This document shows positions 447 to 8,220 of a stretch of DNA of 48,276 bases, piece by piece. The notes under the pieces are model-generated. The model made no database searches and had not been told where the DNA came from. It worked only from the letters and a program-made list of their open reading frames with translations. The DNA comes from Caldifarciminota bacterium (lineage in GTDB: Bacteria; Hydrothermota; Tepidihabitantia; B3-TA06): the NCBI GenBank assembly GCA_023128825.1, contig JAGMDF010000045.1, positions 1 to 48,276 of the forward strand, in the 5' to 3' direction. The position numbers were made by a program, and so were the translations under genes. The stretch's first letter is position 1; each line of letters starts with the position of its first letter.

Positions 447-1649
447 ATGAGCGTTATCCTGCTTGGGATTCTGGCGTTCGTCCAGCCTGAGGACGAATCC
501 ACCTACTACGGGATGGACATGGACATAGCGGCGTTCTCGCGATACTGGGAGAAGGCATACGAGACCTCACCCTTTGGATTCAGGACATCTCAAGGGTGCC
601 ACGACATGAGACATTGGTACCAGATCTACGAAGCCAGGGCGGAGGCCACTTTAGCCGGTCCTTTCAGTTTGCGTTATCGTTTTTTCATGCTTCGAGACTA
701 CGAGACTTCCATAACCCAGCACCGGTTCGAGCCAACGATGCGTGTAGCGCGCGATCTCTATCTGCACCTGGTGGCGGTTCCTTCGTATTTCAAGAAGGAG
801 GACGAGGCGGGTATAGGTCTTGCATGGCGCAGGGATTTTACCGACTGGGTGGCCGTTTACGCGATAGCTCAGGGTTTCGATCACAACGTAAGTCTCATGT
901 ATACCCCTGCCGGCCCTAAGAACGACTCCTTCATGCAGATCCCTTACAGGTTCGAGGTTGATGCCCGAGGCGAGCTTGGGTGGATGCGTCTGCGGCTTCA
1001 TGCCGAGCTGGGCACCCGTTCTCAACAGAGGCTTTGCTGGCCTGACAGCGCCTTATACGAGTGGGAACGAGATCGGGACCGGAGCTCGGCGTGGGGAAGG
1101 ATCGAGCTGCAGCCCGTCAAGGATCTATGGGTAGGCACGCGGTTTGCCTGGCATCTCGACCGCACCGAGACCCGCTGGCATGCTCGGGGGGTCCTGACGG
1201 CCGATACGCTAATAGACCGCTACCTGAAGCCCTTCGTATCATTCTCCCCTACCGAGCGGCTTGAGCTTTCATGCACCCATCAGATATGGAGGATGAACCG
1301 TGATATGGATTCGGTATCCTACCGCCGCGACTACCACGTCCTTACGGCACTGATGAGCTGGAATCCATGGCCTGCTGTCGTTTTCGAGGCCGGGTATCAG
1401 CACTCGTGGCGCTACATCTACAACAACCACACACTGATCACCGAGCCTTACAGCGGCAGCCTCACCCAGTCCAGGCTGCTTTTGAATCTCGAGATGCGGT
1501 TCCGGTCCGGTTTTATGTTTACAATAAAGGAAGGAATCGAGATGGACGACTTCCCCAGGGGAACGTTCGAGTATCCGCACAACCATACCTACGTCTCCAT
1601 ACATATGCCTTTGGCCTTTTTCGATGAGCATGGACGCAGCGAGGACTAG
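447..1649 (+). CDS. Predicted outer-membrane beta-barrel protein, function unknown
   Basis: 400 residues. The N-terminus has a short hydrophobic stretch (VILLGILAFV) that could be a weak signal sequence. The rest is rich in Tyr, Trp, Arg and alternating polar/hydrophobic strands (for example YRFEVDARGELGWMRLRLHAEL and the later repeated strands ending in aromatic residues), the texture of a porin-like barrel. No catalytic motif is seen. It is the first gene of the operon and overlaps birA by 26 bp. The promoter at 413-440 puts the ATG at the probable transcription start. I do not recognise a named family; the barrel call is inference from composition. Confidence 0.6.
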   Translation: MSVILLGILAFVQPEDESTYYGMDMDIAAFSRYWEKAYETSPFGFRTSQGCHDMRHWYQIYEARAEATLAGPFSLRYRFFMLRDYETSITQHRFEPTMRVARDLYLHLVAVPSYFKKEDEAGIGLAWRRDFTDWVAVYAIAQGFDHNVSLMYTPAGPKNDSFMQIPYRFEVDARGELGWMRLRLHAELGTRSQQRLCWPDSALYEWERDRDRSSAWGRIELQPVKDLWVGTRFAWHLDRTETRWHARGVLTADTLIDRYLKPFVSFSPTERLELSCTHQIWRMNRDMDSVSYRRDYHVLTALMSWNPWPAVVFEAGYQHSWRYIYNNHTLITEPYSGSLTQSRLLLNLEMRFRSGFMFTIKEGIEMDDFPRGTFEYPHNHTYVSIHMPLAFFDEHGRSED

Positions 1650-2355
1650 TAAAGCCCTGGGGGGCTTACATGTAGAGTGTTACGGGGAGGTCACCTCAAC
1701 CCAGGACGCGGCTCGTGCCCTGCGTGTCCAGCCGCCCTATCTCGTTTGCGCTTCAGAGCAGAGTGCAGGCAAGGGCAGATTGGGAAGGTGCTGGCGATCG
1801 GACAGGGGAGGACTCTACTTTACCCTGGTCCTCCAGAGACCGGAACAGGACTGGGCGGTGCCTCTCGTATCTGCATACGCTTTATGGAAAGGGCTTTCCT
1901 CAAAGGTGTTGTCCCTCGAGATGAAGTGGCCGAACGATCTCTACGTGGAAGAAAAAAAGCTCGCCGGGGTTATGGTTGAAGGATGGGACGCCCGTCTGGG
2001 CGCAGGCGTGGGATTGAACGTGAACCAGCTAAGTTTTGAAGGCGACCTGGCCTCCTCTGCGGTCTCGCTGCGTATGCTCGCAGGTGCGGAGTTCGATCTT
2101 GAGGTCTTGCTTATCTCCATAGTTTCTGGTATGCTTAAGGCGATGGACGAGCTTAGCAACCATGGATTTCGATTCTTTCAGCCCGCGCTTCGCCGGGTTC
2201 TCCTGGAGGCCGACCAGCCGGTCAAGGTTATCCGGGATAACAGAACATACACCGGCCGTCTTCTTGACCTTGGGCCATCAGGCGAGGCGTTGGTTCAGAG
2301 CGCTGGGGGTGAGCTCTTCACCGTTCCTGCCCAGCACCTTCTTGAGGCGAGATGA
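1624..2355 (+). CDS. birA: Biotin--[acetyl-CoA-carboxylase] ligase
   Basis: Attaches biotin to carrier proteins through biotinyl-AMP. The 243 residues show the BPL/LplA catalytic fold: VTSTQDAAR near the N-terminus, the nucleotide loop GKGRLGRCW (about 49-57), KWPNDLY (about 99-105), KKLAG and a GVGLNVN segment. A C-terminal beta domain (about 195-243) matches the BPL C-domain. There is no N-terminal helix-turn-helix, so it is a class I ligase without repressor function. It overlaps the upstream barrel gene and shares an ATGA overlap with coaX. Confidence 0.92.
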   Translation: MSMDAARTSKALGGLHVECYGEVTSTQDAARALRVQPPYLVCASEQSAGKGRLGRCWRSDRGGLYFTLVLQRPEQDWAVPLVSAYALWKGLSSKVLSLEMKWPNDLYVEEKKLAGVMVEGWDARLGAGVGLNVNQLSFEGDLASSAVSLRMLAGAEFDLEVLLISIVSGMLKAMDELSNHGFRFFQPALRRVLLEADQPVKVIRDNRTYTGRLLDLGPSGEALVQSAGGELFTVPAQHLLEAR

Positions 2356-3122
2356 TAGTCCTGGTTGACGTAGGCAACTCGTTCACCAAGGTAGCCACCG
2401 CCGAGGGCACCCGCCTGACCTGGGCCGCGCGTCTGACCACGCATCCCGAGCGCACGCCGGATGAGATATTTATAGAACTCAAAGCCTTAGGCATCCAGGA
2501 GCCTCGGGACGCGGTGATATGCTCGGTGGTGCCTGCGCTTACCGGGCGGTTCGTTGAGATGTTCCGCAGCCGGTTCAACCTGGGGAGTCCTCTGGTCGTT
2601 ACACCCTATGTCAATACAGGCATAACCATCCTCTACCGCAACCTCTCCAATCTTGGTGCCGACCGTATCGCCAACGCGGTTGGTGCCTACTTCGATTACG
2701 GCAAGGACGTAGCTGTAGTGGACTTCGGTACGGCGACCACAATAGATTTCGTCACGAGCAAGGGTGAGTACCTTGGGGGTATCATAGCGCCCGGCCTGGA
2801 AGCCAGTCTGCATAATCTCATATCCAAAGCCCCGAAGCTTTTTGAGATCAAGCCTGAAAAGCCTTCCCGCTACGTTGGACGTTCAACCGAGGAGTGCCTG
2901 CAGTCGGGTTCCTATCTTCTGACTGTAGGGCTGATCGAGGCGGTGCGGGCCGCGGTCAGAAGGGAAACGAAGATAGACTTTACCTTTATCGCCACCGGCG
3001 GACTGGCCGATCGCTTTGCCCCGTTCGCAAACGCCATAGAACTCGTGGACCGCGACCTTACCCTCAAGGGATGCCTGCATCTGTACCGGTTGAATAAAGG
3101 GGAGGGGGATGATCAAGCTTGA
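2352..3122 (+). CDS. coaX: Type III pantothenate kinase
   Basis: Phosphorylates pantothenate, the first step of CoA synthesis. The 256-residue protein has the ASKHA-fold signatures of CoaX: the phosphate loop VDVGNSFTK at 5-13, GADRIANAVGA in the middle, VVDFGTATTIDF and the GGIIAPGL segment. Its length is normal for the family. The start overlaps the birA stop (ATGA) and the end overlaps tsaE by 14 bp, so translation is coupled. Confidence 0.93.
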   Translation: MIVLVDVGNSFTKVATAEGTRLTWAARLTTHPERTPDEIFIELKALGIQEPRDAVICSVVPALTGRFVEMFRSRFNLGSPLVVTPYVNTGITILYRNLSNLGADRIANAVGAYFDYGKDVAVVDFGTATTIDFVTSKGEYLGGIIAPGLEASLHNLISKAPKLFEIKPEKPSRYVGRSTEECLQSGSYLLTVGLIEAVRAAVRRETKIDFTFIATGGLADRFAPFANAIELVDRDLTLKGCLHLYRLNKGEGDDQA

Positions 3123-3543
3123 GACCAAAAGTCCTGCAGAGACCTATAACCTCGGCAGGCGCATAGCCCGGGGTATCCGGTCAGGGGACGTGCTTGCCTT
3201 CAAGGGGGAGCTGGGCTCAGGAAAGACCACCCTTATCCAGGGAATCATCGAGGGGCTTGGGGTTGCAGAAAGGGTGCAGAGCCCCTCCTTTGTTCTGGTT
3301 CGCACCTACCACGCTGATTTCGAGATAAAACACGTTGATCTCTACCGGCTCGATCCGCAGGGCGTAGACGGCCTGCACCTTGAGGAGATCTACAGCGAAG
3401 ACGGTGTGATGCTTGTCGAGTGGTCAGATCACGCCGGCTGGCTGCCAGGACGGGTAAGTTTTTTAGAGATATGTTTCTCGCCGGAAAACCAAAATCATCG
3501 CCGGATAACCGTCAGCGGCCCTATCCAGAAGAGGCTTGCGTGA
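3109..3543 (+). CDS. tsaE: tRNA threonylcarbamoyladenosine biosynthesis ATPase TsaE
   Basis: P-loop ATPase that works with TsaB and TsaD to make t6A37 in ANN-decoding tRNAs. The Walker A FKGELGSGKTTL lies at about 35-46. Then come the family-typical VQSPSFVLVRTY and the HVDLYRLD segment. Its 144 residues are normal. It overlaps coaX by 14 bp and overlaps the GTG start of tsaB (GTGA). Confidence 0.93.
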   Translation: MIKLETKSPAETYNLGRRIARGIRSGDVLAFKGELGSGKTTLIQGIIEGLGVAERVQSPSFVLVRTYHADFEIKHVDLYRLDPQGVDGLHLEEIYSEDGVMLVEWSDHAGWLPGRVSFLEICFSPENQNHRRITVSGPIQKRLA

Positions 3544-4229
3544 GCGACCTGCTTTTGGCAATCGAGGCGTCTTCCAGCTGGACGGGCGCGGCGCTGGCCC
3601 GGGGCTGCAAAATCCTTGCCGAGCACAGTGTTGAGAGCATCTCAAGGCACAACGAGGTGCTTGCAGGGTTGATCCAGGAAGTCATGAGGGAAGCGGGTAA
3701 GGATTTTACCGATCTCTCGCTCCTTGCCTGCTCGATCGGCCCGGGTTCGTTCACCGCCCTGCGCATCGGCCTGCTTTTTGCCAAAGGGATAGCTTTTGCT
3801 CATTCCTTGAAGATCGTTCCCGTTATGACGCTCGACGTGCTCAACGCGAGCCTGTGTGTCGAAGACGAGACCGAGTTTCGTTTGCCGGTGCTCGATGCGT
3901 ACAAGAGCGAGGTGTTTACCGCGCTCTACAAGGGATCGAAGAGAGCCAGCGAACCGGTAATCGTTGATCCAGCGTTCATCGCTTCCCTTGCGGGAAGCCC
4001 TGTGCACACAGAGCCTGTGAGGGTCTTCGGTCCTGCAAGTCTGAAATACGAAGAGTCTTTAAGAGCCTCCCTTGGGGAACGCCTACATATGCCTGAAAAT
4101 CCTCAGATCGCTCCCACCCCTTCGGCACTTGCCCGGCTTGCATGCGAGCGGCGCGAAGATGCCTGCGATCCGGCCGATCTTGAACCATTCTACCTGCGAA
4201 TGCCGGATGCAAAGAAGCCTAAATCTTAG
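3540..4229 (+). CDS. tsaB: tRNA threonylcarbamoyladenosine biosynthesis protein TsaB
   Basis: Scaffold partner of TsaD in t6A synthesis. I choose the GTG at 3540, which overlaps the tsaE stop as GTGA and gives MSDLLLAIEASSSWTGAAL, the expected N-terminus. A longer open frame from 3420 only reads through tsaE. RHNEVL, the SIGPGSFTALRIGL loop and the following KGIAF segment are diagnostic. About 229 residues. The N-terminal lobe is well conserved and the C-terminal half is divergent, as usual. TsaD is not in the window. Confidence 0.92.
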   Translation: MSDLLLAIEASSSWTGAALARGCKILAEHSVESISRHNEVLAGLIQEVMREAGKDFTDLSLLACSIGPGSFTALRIGLLFAKGIAFAHSLKIVPVMTLDVLNASLCVEDETEFRLPVLDAYKSEVFTALYKGSKRASEPVIVDPAFIASLAGSPVHTEPVRVFGPASLKYEESLRASLGERLHMPENPQIAPTPSALARLACERREDACDPADLEPFYLRMPDAKKPKS

Positions 4230-4686
4230 AGCCATGAAGGCGGTTGATCTTGGAAGGGTCTCGGAGATAGAGCGGGAGTCATTCAAAGCCCCGTGGTCGA
4301 AGCAGATGATCAAGGAGTTATGCGGGTTGGAAAACGCCGTCTGTCTTGTGCTTGATGTTGACGACGTTGTTCAAGGTTATGTATCCGCCAGGATAGAAAG
4401 CGATGAGATACCCATCCTTCACGTAGTGAATCTGGCGGTCGCGCCCGCGTTAAGAAGACAGGGATACGGCAAGATGCTGCTTGCAGGGATACTCAAACAG
4501 GGCCGCGATGCCGGATGCGAGTGGAGCTATCTTGAGGTTCACACCACCAATCCGGCCGCGATTCGTTTGTACCAGAAAGCCGGTTTTAAGATATTTCGTA
4601 AGCGGTCGCATTACTACGAGGCCGGCTCGGACGCCTACGAGATGGGAGCCGCAATCGAAGAAGCTCTAAAATCCTTAGGGAGGTAA
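4207..4686 (+). CDS. rimI: Ribosomal-protein-alanine N-acetyltransferase (RimI-type GNAT)
   Basis: GNAT acetyltransferase, often next to tsaB. I choose the ATG at 4207 (MQRSLNLRAMKAVDL), 23 bp inside tsaB, because family alignment starts there; an upstream ATG at 4072 would lie deep in tsaB. Visible motifs are IERESFKAPWS, the acetyl-CoA loop LAVAPALRRQGYGKMLL (R/QxxGxG/A) and LEVHTTNPAAIRLYQKAGF. 159 residues, normal for RimI. The natural substrate is inferred from the family. Confidence 0.88.
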   Translation: MQRSLNLRAMKAVDLGRVSEIERESFKAPWSKQMIKELCGLENAVCLVLDVDDVVQGYVSARIESDEIPILHVVNLAVAPALRRQGYGKMLLAGILKQGRDAGCEWSYLEVHTTNPAAIRLYQKAGFKIFRKRSHYYEAGSDAYEMGAAIEEALKSLGR

Positions 4687-4688
4687 GA

Positions 4689-5600
4689 ATGCCCGTGACT
4701 CTTTCTGAGAGCCTGGCAAAGTTGAAGATGGACGATCCTCTGTTCGTTCGCAACCTGACCATCTACCCTCTATCAAACGGCGGGGGCAGTTCGAGGAAAG
4801 TCGTTACCCTTGCCGAGGCCATGGACGCCGGCACGGTGGATATCAGCGAGCTTGAGGCCCCTGCGGTCGAGGAGATCATCCTCGACAACCAGGCAGATGA
4901 GCCTTTGTTCCTGCTCGACGGCGAGGAGATATTCGGCGCCCAGCAGGCAAGGGTTACGACCACCGCTGCTCTTATAGATGCTCGAACCTCTGTCCCTGTA
5001 CCCGTAGCGTGTATAGAGGAGGGCCGCTGGGGCGGTTCAAGCTCCTTCGAGGGTTCGTTCACCTCGACCCACCCCAGATTGCGCTCCATCATCTGCCGGG
5101 GGGTGAACTCCTCGCTCAAATCAAAACAGAGCTTCCGCGCACCCCAGCGACTTATCTGGGACGAGGTCACCCGCAAGCTCACCTCGCTTAAGGTCTCCTC
5201 AGCCACCTCCTCCTTTCACGATCTTGCAACCACCCTTGCAGATGAGACCGCGCGCTACGCGCTTGATGCAGAAGAACTTGCAGGTGCTCAGGGGATGATC
5301 GTTGCCGCTGGCAAGGATATACTCGGTCTTGAGTATGCATCCGACGCAGATCTCTTCAAAAGGCTCACCCCCCGGCTGCTTCAAGGATACGCGCTTGACG
5401 CGCTCGAACGCCGTTCGGTGGGCAATCCAGCTTCCCGAAGGGAACTGGACAGGTTTCTTGATAGAATCTCGAGCCTTGAACCCTCACGCTACCCTGGTGT
5501 GTCCCTTGGCCAGGACTGGCGGTTTGAGGACCGAAGATTGGTTGGCCGCGCCCTTGTCACTGACGACGTGATACTCCAGGCCTCGTTCTTCCCGTGCTAA
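4689..5600 (+). CDS. ARPP-1 family (DUF6569-like) protein
   Basis: 303 residues, no signal peptide. The central stretch (PLFLLDGEEIFGAQQARVTTTAALI, then SVPVPVACIEEGRWGG) is what I know from the ARPP-1 domain, a family named for genomic association with ARG and rhodanese-phosphatase proteins; its biochemical function is unknown. It starts 2 nt after rimI with GGGAGG upstream and ends one base before the start of the kinase-helicase gene, so the two are almost certainly co-translated. That is the most informative clue to its role. Confidence 0.75.
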   Translation: MPVTLSESLAKLKMDDPLFVRNLTIYPLSNGGGSSRKVVTLAEAMDAGTVDISELEAPAVEEIILDNQADEPLFLLDGEEIFGAQQARVTTTAALIDARTSVPVPVACIEEGRWGGSSSFEGSFTSTHPRLRSIICRGVNSSLKSKQSFRAPQRLIWDEVTRKLTSLKVSSATSSFHDLATTLADETARYALDAEELAGAQGMIVAAGKDILGLEYASDADLFKRLTPRLLQGYALDALERRSVGNPASRRELDRFLDRISSLEPSRYPGVSLGQDWRFEDRRLVGRALVTDDVILQASFFPC

Positions 5601-5601
5601 A

Positions 5602-8220
5602 TTGATCAGACAGACCCTTGGCAAGTACCGAATCCTGCGCTGGCTCGGCGGCGGCCAGTTCGGTGACGTTTACTTAGCGCACGACACGATCCTCGGCATG
5701 GATTTCGCGCTCAAGGTCTCGCGCATGAGGGCTTCAGACATCCAGATGCTCAAGGACGAGGCGCGGCTCCTGGCCGGGCTCACACACCCGAACATCGTTC
5801 GCTTCTACTCGGTGGACCGGATGGAGGGGAAGTTCGTCCTGGTTGCCGAGTACGTGCACGGGGAAAGCCTGCGAGACAGGCTCCAAGAGGGACGAGTGGA
5901 CATCACCGAGGCGTTGCGTATCGCAAGGCAGGTGCTTTCCGCACTGGACTATGCACATGCAAAGGGTGTTATCCACCGCGACCTCAAACCTGAAAACATA
6001 CTTCTTACAGAGAATGGGGAGGTGAAGGTCGCGGACTTCGGTCTGGCCAGGTTTCTTAAGAAAGGCTCGCTTGCCGCGTCGGTGGCTGGCACACCTTTCT
6101 ACATGTCCCCGGAGGCGTGGTCAGGCAGGTTCATGCCGCAATCCGATCTTTTCAGTACAGGCGTTATCCTCTACGAGATGCTTACCGGTGTCCTTCCCTT
6201 TCAGGGAGCCAACTACGAGGAGCTCCGCACGAAGCTCATGAATGAAGCACCCACCGATCCGTCGCGCCTGCGGCCTGAAATCCCCAAAACGATCACCGAC
6301 ACCATCCTCTCTCTTTTGGCCAAGGACGCCGAGGCCAGGCCGCAGGACGCCGGAGAGGTGCTAGGTGCTCTGGAGACCCGCGGTCGCAGGATCGTCCTTC
6401 CCGGCGTATCCGCCAAGAAAGCGCCGGTTGAGGGAGTAACACTCACCGCTGAGCAGCGCGATATCGTTGAATCAGCCGAAAACCGGTTGCTGGTGGTGGG
6501 AGCGGCGGGGACTGGGAAGACCACCTTGCTGGTTCAACGAGCCTGTCATCTCACGAGACAAAATATCTCTCCGGACAAGCTTCTCTTTCTTGCCTTCTCG
6601 CGCAGGGCGGCTGAGGAGATACGGACGCGGCTGGAGAGGCTGCTTTGCAGAAGCCTGCCCGACGTGTGGATAGAGACCGTCCACTCGTTCGGCTGGCGCC
6701 TCCTGCGCATCGAAGGATGGAGGCTTGACCTTGCCCCGGAGTTCAAGACGGTGAGTCCAGAGGAGATACTTAATATCCTTGCAAAGAAATGGGGGAAGAA
6801 CCGTGCGAGGGCCCTTGCCCGGAGCCTTGCCGACCTCAGGCTCGAAGGCGAAACCCTTGAGGATTATCCTGCTCGGACACCTTCAGAGAAGCAGATTCGC
6901 GATTTCTGGCAGGACTACGAACAAGCCAAGAAAGATGCCGACGCGGTTGATTTCGACGATCTTTTGATCAATACCGTCGGTTTGCTTGAACGTGATGCCG
7001 AGCTTCGGGATAGATGGCGTTCCAGGTTCCTCCACATATTAGCGGATGAGCTGCAGGATCTGCATCCTTTGCAGTTCAGGCTGCTGCGTTTGATATGCGG
7101 TCCGGATACCGGCCTTTTTCTTACGGGCGACGCGGCCCAGTCCATCTACGGCTGGCGCGGTGCAGACCCAAGGTTGATAGAGGCCGCGGCAAAGGTGTTC
7201 GCACCCATCGAGCGCCACGAGCTCAACGCCTCATTCAGGATTGGGAGCGAACTCATTAAGATAGCAGGGAACCTGATGTCCGGCTCCGAGTATTCCTCAG
7301 GGGTTCCGCATCTTTCCCTTGCAAAACAGTCCGGGCGATTCGAGTTCTACAAGGCCAGTGGTGTGGCGGACGAGGCGCGTTTCGTTGTCGAACGCATCAA
7401 GAGTCTTGTTCAGGAAAAAGGCTACAGGCCCTCCGATTTCGGCGTGCTCTACCGGGTAAACTCCTACTCGCGGGCGTTCGAGGAGGCGCTTGCCGCGGAG
7501 CGCATCCCTGCGAGCGTGATCGGCTCAGAGCCTTTCTACGAGCGCGAGGAGGTGCGCTGTTTGTTGGATATTCTTAAATCACTGCGTGAACGCTCGTTTG
7601 CCGGCTCCATTCCGGCCTGGCAGTGGCTCCTGTCGCTGAAACCACAGACGAACCCTCTGATTGTCGAGGAGGGTCTCCTTAGGCTCTCGCCGGATGCCAA
7701 GACCCGTTCGCGCCGTTCGATCGAGCGGTTCTTCGCATCTATCGCCGAGTGGGGTAAGCGAGCCGATGATGTTAGTCCTTCTGACCTGCTTGAGTTCATC
7801 GCCGGCAGCAAGGTCGCCGCCAAGAGGTTTTCCTCTTCTCAAGCATCGGAAGCCCTCGACGAACTCAAGGAAGCCTCGGCACGATTCCGCAAGGGTGAAC
7901 TCGGTTTGTTCCTCGATCACCTGGCACTTCTGGAGGATCTGGAGCTTGCCCAGTGGTCGAGGGATGCGGTCAAGCTCTTATCGATCCACTCCGCCAAGGG
8001 ACTGGAGTTCAAGGTAATCTTCCTGGTTGGTTTAGCGGAGGGTCTTTTTCCCCTTACCCGCAGCCTTGCCGACCCGGAGGCGCTTGAGGAGGAGAGGCGT
8101 CTGTGCTACGTGGCCATAACGCGCTCGCTTGCCGAGCTTTACGTGTCCGTGCCCGCCCGCCGGTTTCGTCAGCCCACAAGGCCTTCCCGGTTTCTTTTAC
8201 AGATGCTGGGTCTTTTGTAG
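5602..8220 (+). CDS. Ser/Thr protein kinase fused to UvrD/PcrA-type SF1 helicase
   Basis: 872 residues in two parts. Residues 9-270 form a complete Hanks-type kinase: glycine loop GGGQFGDVY (16-24), Lys38, HRDLKPEN (125-132), DFG (145-147) and SPEAWSG. Residues about 285-872 form a UvrD-like helicase: Walker A GAAGTGKTTLL (about 299-309), TVHSFGWRLL, motif II ADELQD, GDAAQSIYGWRGAD, SFRIGSE, SIHSAKGLEF and CYVAITRS. All key kinase and helicase residues appear present. The helicase half is shorter than stand-alone UvrD and lacks the C-terminal tail. No transmembrane or PASTA segment is visible. The start is TTG at 5602, one base after the ARPP-1 stop; no better start exists in frame. A role in DNA repair or conflict under phospho-control is inference. 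Confidence 0.9.
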   Translation: MIRQTLGKYRILRWLGGGQFGDVYLAHDTILGMDFALKVSRMRASDIQMLKDEARLLAGLTHPNIVRFYSVDRMEGKFVLVAEYVHGESLRDRLQEGRVDITEALRIARQVLSALDYAHAKGVIHRDLKPENILLTENGEVKVADFGLARFLKKGSLAASVAGTPFYMSPEAWSGRFMPQSDLFSTGVILYEMLTGVLPFQGANYEELRTKLMNEAPTDPSRLRPEIPKTITDTILSLLAKDAEARPQDAGEVLGALETRGRRIVLPGVSAKKAPVEGVTLTAEQRDIVESAENRLLVVGAAGTGKTTLLVQRACHLTRQNISPDKLLFLAFSRRAAEEIRTRLERLLCRSLPDVWIETVHSFGWRLLRIEGWRLDLAPEFKTVSPEEILNILAKKWGKNRARALARSLADLRLEGETLEDYPARTPSEKQIRDFWQDYEQAKKDADAVDFDDLLINTVGLLERDAELRDRWRSRFLHILADELQDLHPLQFRLLRLICGPDTGLFLTGDAAQSIYGWRGADPRLIEAAAKVFAPIERHELNASFRIGSELIKIAGNLMSGSEYSSGVPHLSLAKQSGRFEFYKASGVADEARFVVERIKSLVQEKGYRPSDFGVLYRVNSYSRAFEEALAAERIPASVIGSEPFYEREEVRCLLDILKSLRERSFAGSIPAWQWLLSLKPQTNPLIVEEGLLRLSPDAKTRSRRSIERFFASIAEWGKRADDVSPSDLLEFIAGSKVAAKRFSSSQASEALDELKEASARFRKGELGLFLDHLALLEDLELAQWSRDAVKLLSIHSAKGLEFKVIFLVGLAEGLFPLTRSLADPEALEEERRLCYVAITRSLAELYVSVPARRFRQPTRPSRFLLQMLGLL

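Follow-up and report, generated by a model that had tools for sequence, protein, structure and literature searches.

What does a protein kinase do when it is joined in one polypeptide to a DNA helicase, and why does the gene for this fusion start one base after that for a protein of the uncharacterised ARPP-1 family (PF20208)? The question is raised by a locus on contig JAGMDF010000045.1 (assembly GCA_023128825.1) of Caldifarciminota bacterium, phylum Hydrothermota, which was analysed as a whole stretch of 48,276 nucleotides (the window) within a draft genome of 2.05 Mb (G000). Here we report that a Hanks kinase-UvrD helicase fusion recurs across the phylum together with its own version of ARPP-1. 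The two tend to be inherited together and therefore probably work as one unit. Our preferred reading, held with roughly even confidence from comparative sequence data, is a conserved two-gene module in which a kinase-controlled motor of superfamily 1A (SF1A) would act in genome maintenance, with ARPP-1 as its dedicated regulator or substrate. A search of the literature (titles and the openings of abstracts, with most subscription papers outside it) returned no report of a kinase-UvrD fusion or of a function for PF20208; as far as that search reaches, the parts belong to known families, whereas neither their combination nor an ARPP-1 clade dedicated to it has been described before.

The kinase-helicase fusion

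The pair comprises the following features.

4689..5600, + strand: ARPP-1 gene (PF20208), ATG start, 303 amino acids (aa), of the fusion-type clade, without a signal-peptide-like N-terminus
5602..8220, + strand: Hanks kinase-UvrD (SF1A) helicase fusion, TTG start, 872 aa
5626..6345, + strand: Hanks-type Ser/Thr kinase domain, residues 9-248 (Pfam PF00069 and catalytic residues)
6346..6441, + strand: linker between the kinase and helicase matches, residues 249-280 (limits of the Pfam matches)
6442..7200, + strand: N-terminal part of the helicase with Q motif, Walker A K306 and Walker B DE 482-483, residues 281-533 (Pfam PF00580)
7201..8151, + strand: C-terminal part of the helicase with a short 2B-like region and motifs V/VI, residues 534-850 (Pfam PF13361; the boundary at 534 is an estimate)

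A single base (5601) lies between the ARPP-1 stop and the start of the fusion. The ARPP-1 protein matches PF20208 over its full length (E 1.8e-73, 247.9 bits, cut-off 27), and the fusion matches Pkinase at residues 9-248 (8.6e-56, 189.7 bits, cut-off 31.7), UvrD-helicase at residues 281-533 (5.2e-58) and UvrD_C (1.9e-38), the last ending at residue 850 and followed by only 22 residues. The kinase half carries the G-loop, K38, E53, HRD at 125-127 and DFG at 145-147, and the helicase half GxGKT with K306, DE at 482-483, Q513, R519 and R841. By score above cut-off and catalytic residues the former is a Hanks-type Ser/Thr kinase; by its UvrD N and C domains and SF1A motifs the latter belongs to the UvrD/Rep SF1A superfamily. 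NERD was not among the 12 Pfam families matched (E <= 0.001). An earlier note on this DNA had described the gene limits at 5600 and 5602, the two complete motif sets in one frame and the absence of NERD, and open reading frames (ORFs), residues and Pfam matches bear it out on all three.

A single frame encodes kinase and helicase in 63 of the 147 genomes of the phylum, and all 63 fusions were re-read as ORFs. The joint is therefore neither a chance nor an assembly join, and an assembly error, which the earlier note had named as a way for its reading to fail, is ruled out. Contig ends cut the fusion in five genomes (G017, G059, G060, G101, G130). In a helicase-domain tree of 73 domains, 72 of them different (a quick tree, without bootstrap), the 31 fusions included (27 from the phylum and four from Acidobacteriota) form one clade with a support of 100 in the Shimodaira-Hasegawa-like approximate likelihood-ratio test (SH-aLRT), within which they cluster largely by family. 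The 41 other helicases, including PcrA-type proteins of the phylum, fall outside it, so that the fusion stands apart from the PcrA/UvrD grouping. Matches across both domains were found in five of 297 Acidobacteriota genomes. Four of these (G183, G199, G226, G419) belong to the same clade and group with families f28 and f29 (support 99), which suggests transfer. The fifth, G254 (L259 8391-11279), likewise has Pkinase followed by UvrD in one frame of 962 aa, but its helicase half branches from within the stand-alone helicases, which points to an apparently independent joining event. The ARPP-1 of G254 is encoded on a different contig and does not belong to the fusion-type clade.

Beyond the phylum, 80 helicase loci retained from the whole collection (not a census) included no fused kinase, with a separate kinase gene nearby in two, and only one of 33 genomes drawn from these loci, itself of Hydrothermota, had the fusion. 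In the phyla of the Desulfobacterales, Stygiobacter and Nitrospirae metagenome-assembled genomes, searches of limited sensitivity (E <= 1e-165) in samples of 345, 345 and 188 genomes found no fusion and gave helicase-only matches in three, one and one genomes, respectively. The fusion may be missed there because only the best few candidates per genome were scored (two for Desulfobacterales and Stygiobacter, four for Nitrospirae; three for Acidobacteriota).

Both halves keep their catalytic residues. In an alignment of 27 of the 63 phylum fusions, the catalytic residues of helicase and kinase (in the latter Lys, Glu, HRD Asp, Asn and DFG) are invariant in 27 of 27, the HRD Arg excepted, and the stretch aligned to residues 258-280 of the linker measures 20-31 aa. 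Kinase half, helicase half and ARPP-1 are all under purifying selection, with ratios of nonsynonymous to synonymous substitution rates (dN/dS) of 0.13, 0.14 and 0.17 between the window and G057, and of 0.17, 0.32 (353 codons, dS 0.10) and 0.14 between the window and G060. The 2B subdomain is autoregulatory in Rep, PcrA and UvrD. The 2B-like region of the 27 fusions spans 113-154 aa between fixed columns; by a single motif rule, whose boundaries differ from these, it spans 136-155 aa (median 150) in the 11 of 32 fusions measurable in this way, whereas 72 of 80 stand-alone homologues have 148-200 aa (median 169). A shortened 2B next to a gained kinase is suggestive only.

The link to ARPP-1

The earlier note had proposed ARPP-1 as the partner of the fusion and a count of how often the two are neighbours. 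Two phyla together contribute 41 genomes in which fusion and ARPP-1 share a strand and are no more than 1,500 bp apart: 37 of the 63 phylum fusion genomes and four Acidobacteriota. ARPP-1 comes first in 39 of these pairs and the fusion in two (G121, G122). With ORF starts taken from mechanical calls, 14 pairs abut or overlap, 29 lie no further than 20 bp apart, and gaps above 100 bp occur in seven; the four Acidobacteriota pairs share a 4-bp ATGA overlap. The proposal of a partner is thus upheld, and the frequent link speaks against the note's other ground for rejection, homologues with separate kinase and helicase genes and no tie to ARPP-1.

When the 69 stretches surrounding the fusion were compared by blastp (E 1e-6, overlap of half the length, genes called mechanically), no gene other than the fusion and ARPP-1 was shared by four or more families, and a third operon partner is thereby rejected at that level. 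A Pfam scan of 106 of the 125 neighbours gave 134 families, of which the commonest 25 are metabolic, ribosomal, transport and membrane families (TonB receptor, VTT, radical SAM, SAM synthetase, S7, EF-P, DnaN and similar ones).

The association extends to genomes in which the genes are apart. One branch of the ARPP-1 tree holds all fusion-adjacent ARPP-1 and most ARPP-1 from fusion genomes that have no second copy nearby. This fusion-type clade had a support of 99/99 in a first tree, SH-aLRT 96 in a tree of 123 rows, where it comprised 67, and SH-aLRT 100 in a tree of 151 rows, where it comprised the same 67. None of the 28 ARPP-1 added to the 151-row tree from fusion-less Acidobacteriota fell inside it. 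Among the 65 Acidobacteriota genomes with an ARPP-1 match, the trees covered the five fusion genomes, G168, G147 and these 28 further loci; L225, a duplicate of L050, was left out throughout, and rows below 250 aa (L108) only from the first tree. PF20208 is present in 81 of the 147 phylum genomes. Its fusion-type version occurs in 60 of the 63 fusion genomes (fragments of 133 aa in G020 and 176 aa in G090 included) against three of the 84 fusion-less ones (G021, G047 and G092, which are 84, 92 and 87% complete). The Fisher value of 1.4e-33 for this contrast is not a probability, because the genomes are related.

ARPP-1 genes are common in genomes without the fusion, so the family at large is not bound to it. 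At E <= 0.001 ARPP-1 was found in 65 of 294 sampled Acidobacteriota genomes; a small control in that phylum, with ARPP-1 in five of five matching genomes and in none of 11 picked fusion-less ones, flatters the link when set against the 60 of 289 fusion-less genomes that carry ARPP-1. A second ARPP-1 group in the phylum has a hydrophobic, signal-peptide-like N-terminus (by hydropathy only; e.g. G000:C118). Fusion-type ARPP-1 lack such an N-terminus, except for a few rows whose mechanical ORF start is far upstream, and so do many ARPP-1 of fusion-less Acidobacteriota, so that its absence is not unique to the fusion type. The window protein thus stands out from the PF20208 family by its dedicated clade, the missing signal-peptide-like N-terminus and its pairing with the fusion. 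Positions common to both aligned subfamilies (GE, G, Q, R; C, E, RW; Q, W) look like a putative active or binding site. Among solved structures no credible ARPP-1 relative was found (best E 0.52).

Several ARPP-1 loci are recorded as observations in their own right. The window's own genome has a second, signal-peptide-like ARPP-1 (L127, G000:C118, 868-1812), as have relatives (L141, L142), and the signal-peptide-like copies of G057 and G061 adjoin TonB_C proteins. Lone fusion-type ARPP-1 genes end one or two bases before a CdaA-like diadenylate cyclase in G028 (L267 6925-8596) and before a RelA/SpoT protein in G022 (L139 5853-8830). Both neighbours make signalling nucleotides, and the placement is possibly chance. 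In G046 the fusion-type ARPP-1 lies apart from the fusion, next to asparaginase and carbamoyltransferase genes, and in G122 (L115 3874-5540) a PLD-domain gene slightly overlaps the end of the ARPP-1 that follows the fusion.

Genomic context and related helicases

Upstream of the pair, the window contains a housekeeping row.

1624..4686, + strand: row of BirA, CoaX, TsaE, TsaB and RimI-like genes upstream of the pair (Pfam)
447-1649: ORF of 400 aa preceding BirA, no Pfam match at E <= 0.001

An ExbB gene downstream of the pair was confirmed by Pfam. The row of genes for N6-threonylcarbamoyladenosine (t6A), coenzyme A and biotin functions, which the earlier note had described as a housekeeping operon, is real and adjoins the pair in all six fusion genomes that the window's family contributes; in G061 the row is truncated inside TsaB by the end of the contig. 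It abuts the pair in no other fusion locus re-read outside that family; in G066 (family f4) a similar row lies about 3 kb from the fusion. The housekeeping context is thus a trait of the window's family. Several f4 and f5 loci have genes of about 850 and 143 aa upstream; at L073, the one locus scanned, their products are a TonB-dependent receptor and a protein with no match in Pfam.

In most genomes that carry it, the fusion comes on top of another helicase. A separate PcrA-type helicase was present, among the matches listed, in 49 of the 63 fusion genomes, for which a general replacement of PcrA by the fusion is ruled out. Here PcrA-type means a stand-alone protein of at least about 375 bits, a threshold set by eye (the matches listed reach down to about 304 bits) because no protein of the phylum reaches the curated pcrA cut-off. 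The remaining 14 genomes, several of them incomplete, had none among the matches listed: five of the window's genus (G000, G057-G060), G050, G064, G070, G073, G089, G090, G101, G102 and G121. The best stand-alone match listed for the window's genus was 6.4e-71, compared with 2.0e-138 in the sister genus (G061), and beyond the fusion the helicases of G000 include an AddA-like protein, which also falls outside the fusion clade. In the window's genus the fusion is perhaps the sole PcrA-like helicase and may have taken over the role of PcrA. The suggestion that the module is a core function of the lineage is accordingly overstated, as 84 of the 147 genomes lack the fusion and the housekeeping context belongs to the window's family; for the window's genus it may hold, since no PcrA-type stand-alone helicase was found there.

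Like PcrA, UvrD and Rep, the fusion keeps the motor motifs, and its best PDB matches by sequence are PcrA (1pjr) and UvrD (3lfu, 2is1) over residues 281 to about 665. It differs from them in its separate clade, its N-terminal kinase and its short 2B-like region, and it scores below the NCBIfam cut-offs for pcrA (328.7, cut-off 911.2) and uvrD (297.6, cut-off 1144.45), the former a weak test given that the best score in the 147 phylum genomes is 860 bits. The 22 residues after the UvrD_C match would, judged by length only, be too few for the C-terminal Tudor domain of UvrD, which binds RNA polymerase (PMC7585439). An early end is shared by several of the phylum's stand-alone PcrA-type proteins, so this feature does not distinguish the fusion. 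With PknB- and StkP-type Hanks kinases the fusion shares the kinase motif set, StkP being among its PDB matches; unlike them, it is joined to a UvrD-like motor and has no other Pfam domain such as PASTA. Kinases are also tied to DNA-processing modules in BREX PglW and in NERD-kinase/helicase proteins, from which the fusion is distinguished by the lack of a NERD match and by a score of 117.8 bits against the PglW model (cut-off 990).

Function and alternatives

PcrA, UvrD and Rep motors translocate 3'-5' on single-stranded DNA, and the motor of the fusion would be expected to do the same. The kinase might control it in cis, either by autophosphorylation or through phosphorylation of ARPP-1 or of proteins encountered on DNA. 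ARPP-1 would then be a dedicated regulator or substrate of the fusion, and the setting would be chromosomal genome maintenance rather than phage defence. PcrA/UvrD is among the phosphoproteins of other bacteria tabulated in PMC4754617, which makes phospho-control of such a helicase plausible.

Several observations weigh against this module. Fusion and ARPP-1 are apart in 26 of the 63 phylum fusion genomes, the relatedness of the genomes inflates the co-occurrence counts, and no ARPP-1 was found in fusion genomes G017, G048 and G050 (80, 98 and 94% complete). About 20 phylum genomes, as well as the fusion-less Acidobacteriota counted above, carry ARPP-1 without the fusion. The HRD Arg is kept in only 23 of the 27 aligned fusions and is Gly in four f26 proteins, and in G028 (L125 44-2625) the helicase switches beyond residue 556 to another, overlapping frame, either a real break or a sequencing error. 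A structure of ARPP-1 predicted from the single window sequence was unusable (predicted local distance difference test score, pLDDT, 38.7). The separated genes and related genomes would also suit co-inheritance without joint action, in which the same lineages keep both genes for separate reasons and adjacency stems from few events; just five changes of the label 'adjacent' suffice on the ARPP-1 tree. Such a history is nevertheless unlikely, given that the genes are neighbours in two phyla and in either order, that no other neighbour is conserved, and that one ARPP-1 clade occurs almost exclusively in fusion genomes, even where the genes are apart.

The roles of the two halves may also be reversed, with the helicase as sensor and the kinase as output: DNA structures or stalled complexes would switch on the kinase, which would phosphorylate ARPP-1 and other proteins, a DNA-damage checkpoint in one protein. 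Plain unwinding is often covered by the separate PcrA-type helicase of 49 fusion genomes, and the conserved kinase residues and the shortened 2B-like region point the same way. The window's genus, without a PcrA-type stand-alone helicase found, favours a motor role there, and the 2B comparison involves differing boundaries and 21 of 32 fusions not measurable by the motif rule; we consider the reversed arrangement a serious but less likely alternative. Its narrower form, in which the motor on damaged or stalled DNA would switch the fused Hanks kinase and this in turn a dedicated ARPP-1 effector, seems rather improbable. An anti-phage or inter-genomic conflict system (the earlier note had raised a conflict module) appears very unlikely. 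The Pfam name ARPP-1 derives from an association with ARG and rhodanese-phosphatase proteins, which lay in conflict systems, and of 91 PADLOC matches the 25 listed are to kinases and UvrD-like helicases of defence systems (among them MAD6, PD-T4-6 and GajB), some of them strong (8.4e-78). They cover, however, the kinase or the helicase part and never both, and ARPP-1 has no PADLOC match. Gabija has a GajA nuclease partner and MADS has other genes, while PD-T4-6 is a lone kinase; no third gene recurs by the pair in four or more families (the neighbours were not PADLOC-scanned), and the commonest neighbour families are of the kind of TonB receptor, VTT, radical SAM and DnaN. The fusions group largely by family, none of 72,556 plasmid records covers 80% of the fusion, and motif scans of viral contigs for ARPP-1 gave 11 and 16 matches, none of them a relative.

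The preferred two-gene module links the uncharacterised ARPP-1 family with a kinase and a DNA motor and offers a small system in which the role of ARPP-1 can be tested. It also provides a naturally occurring helicase that has its protein kinase in cis, and would allow the control of bacterial DNA processing by phosphorylation to be tested directly. The checkpoint reading, if true, would also give ARPP-1 an activity context.

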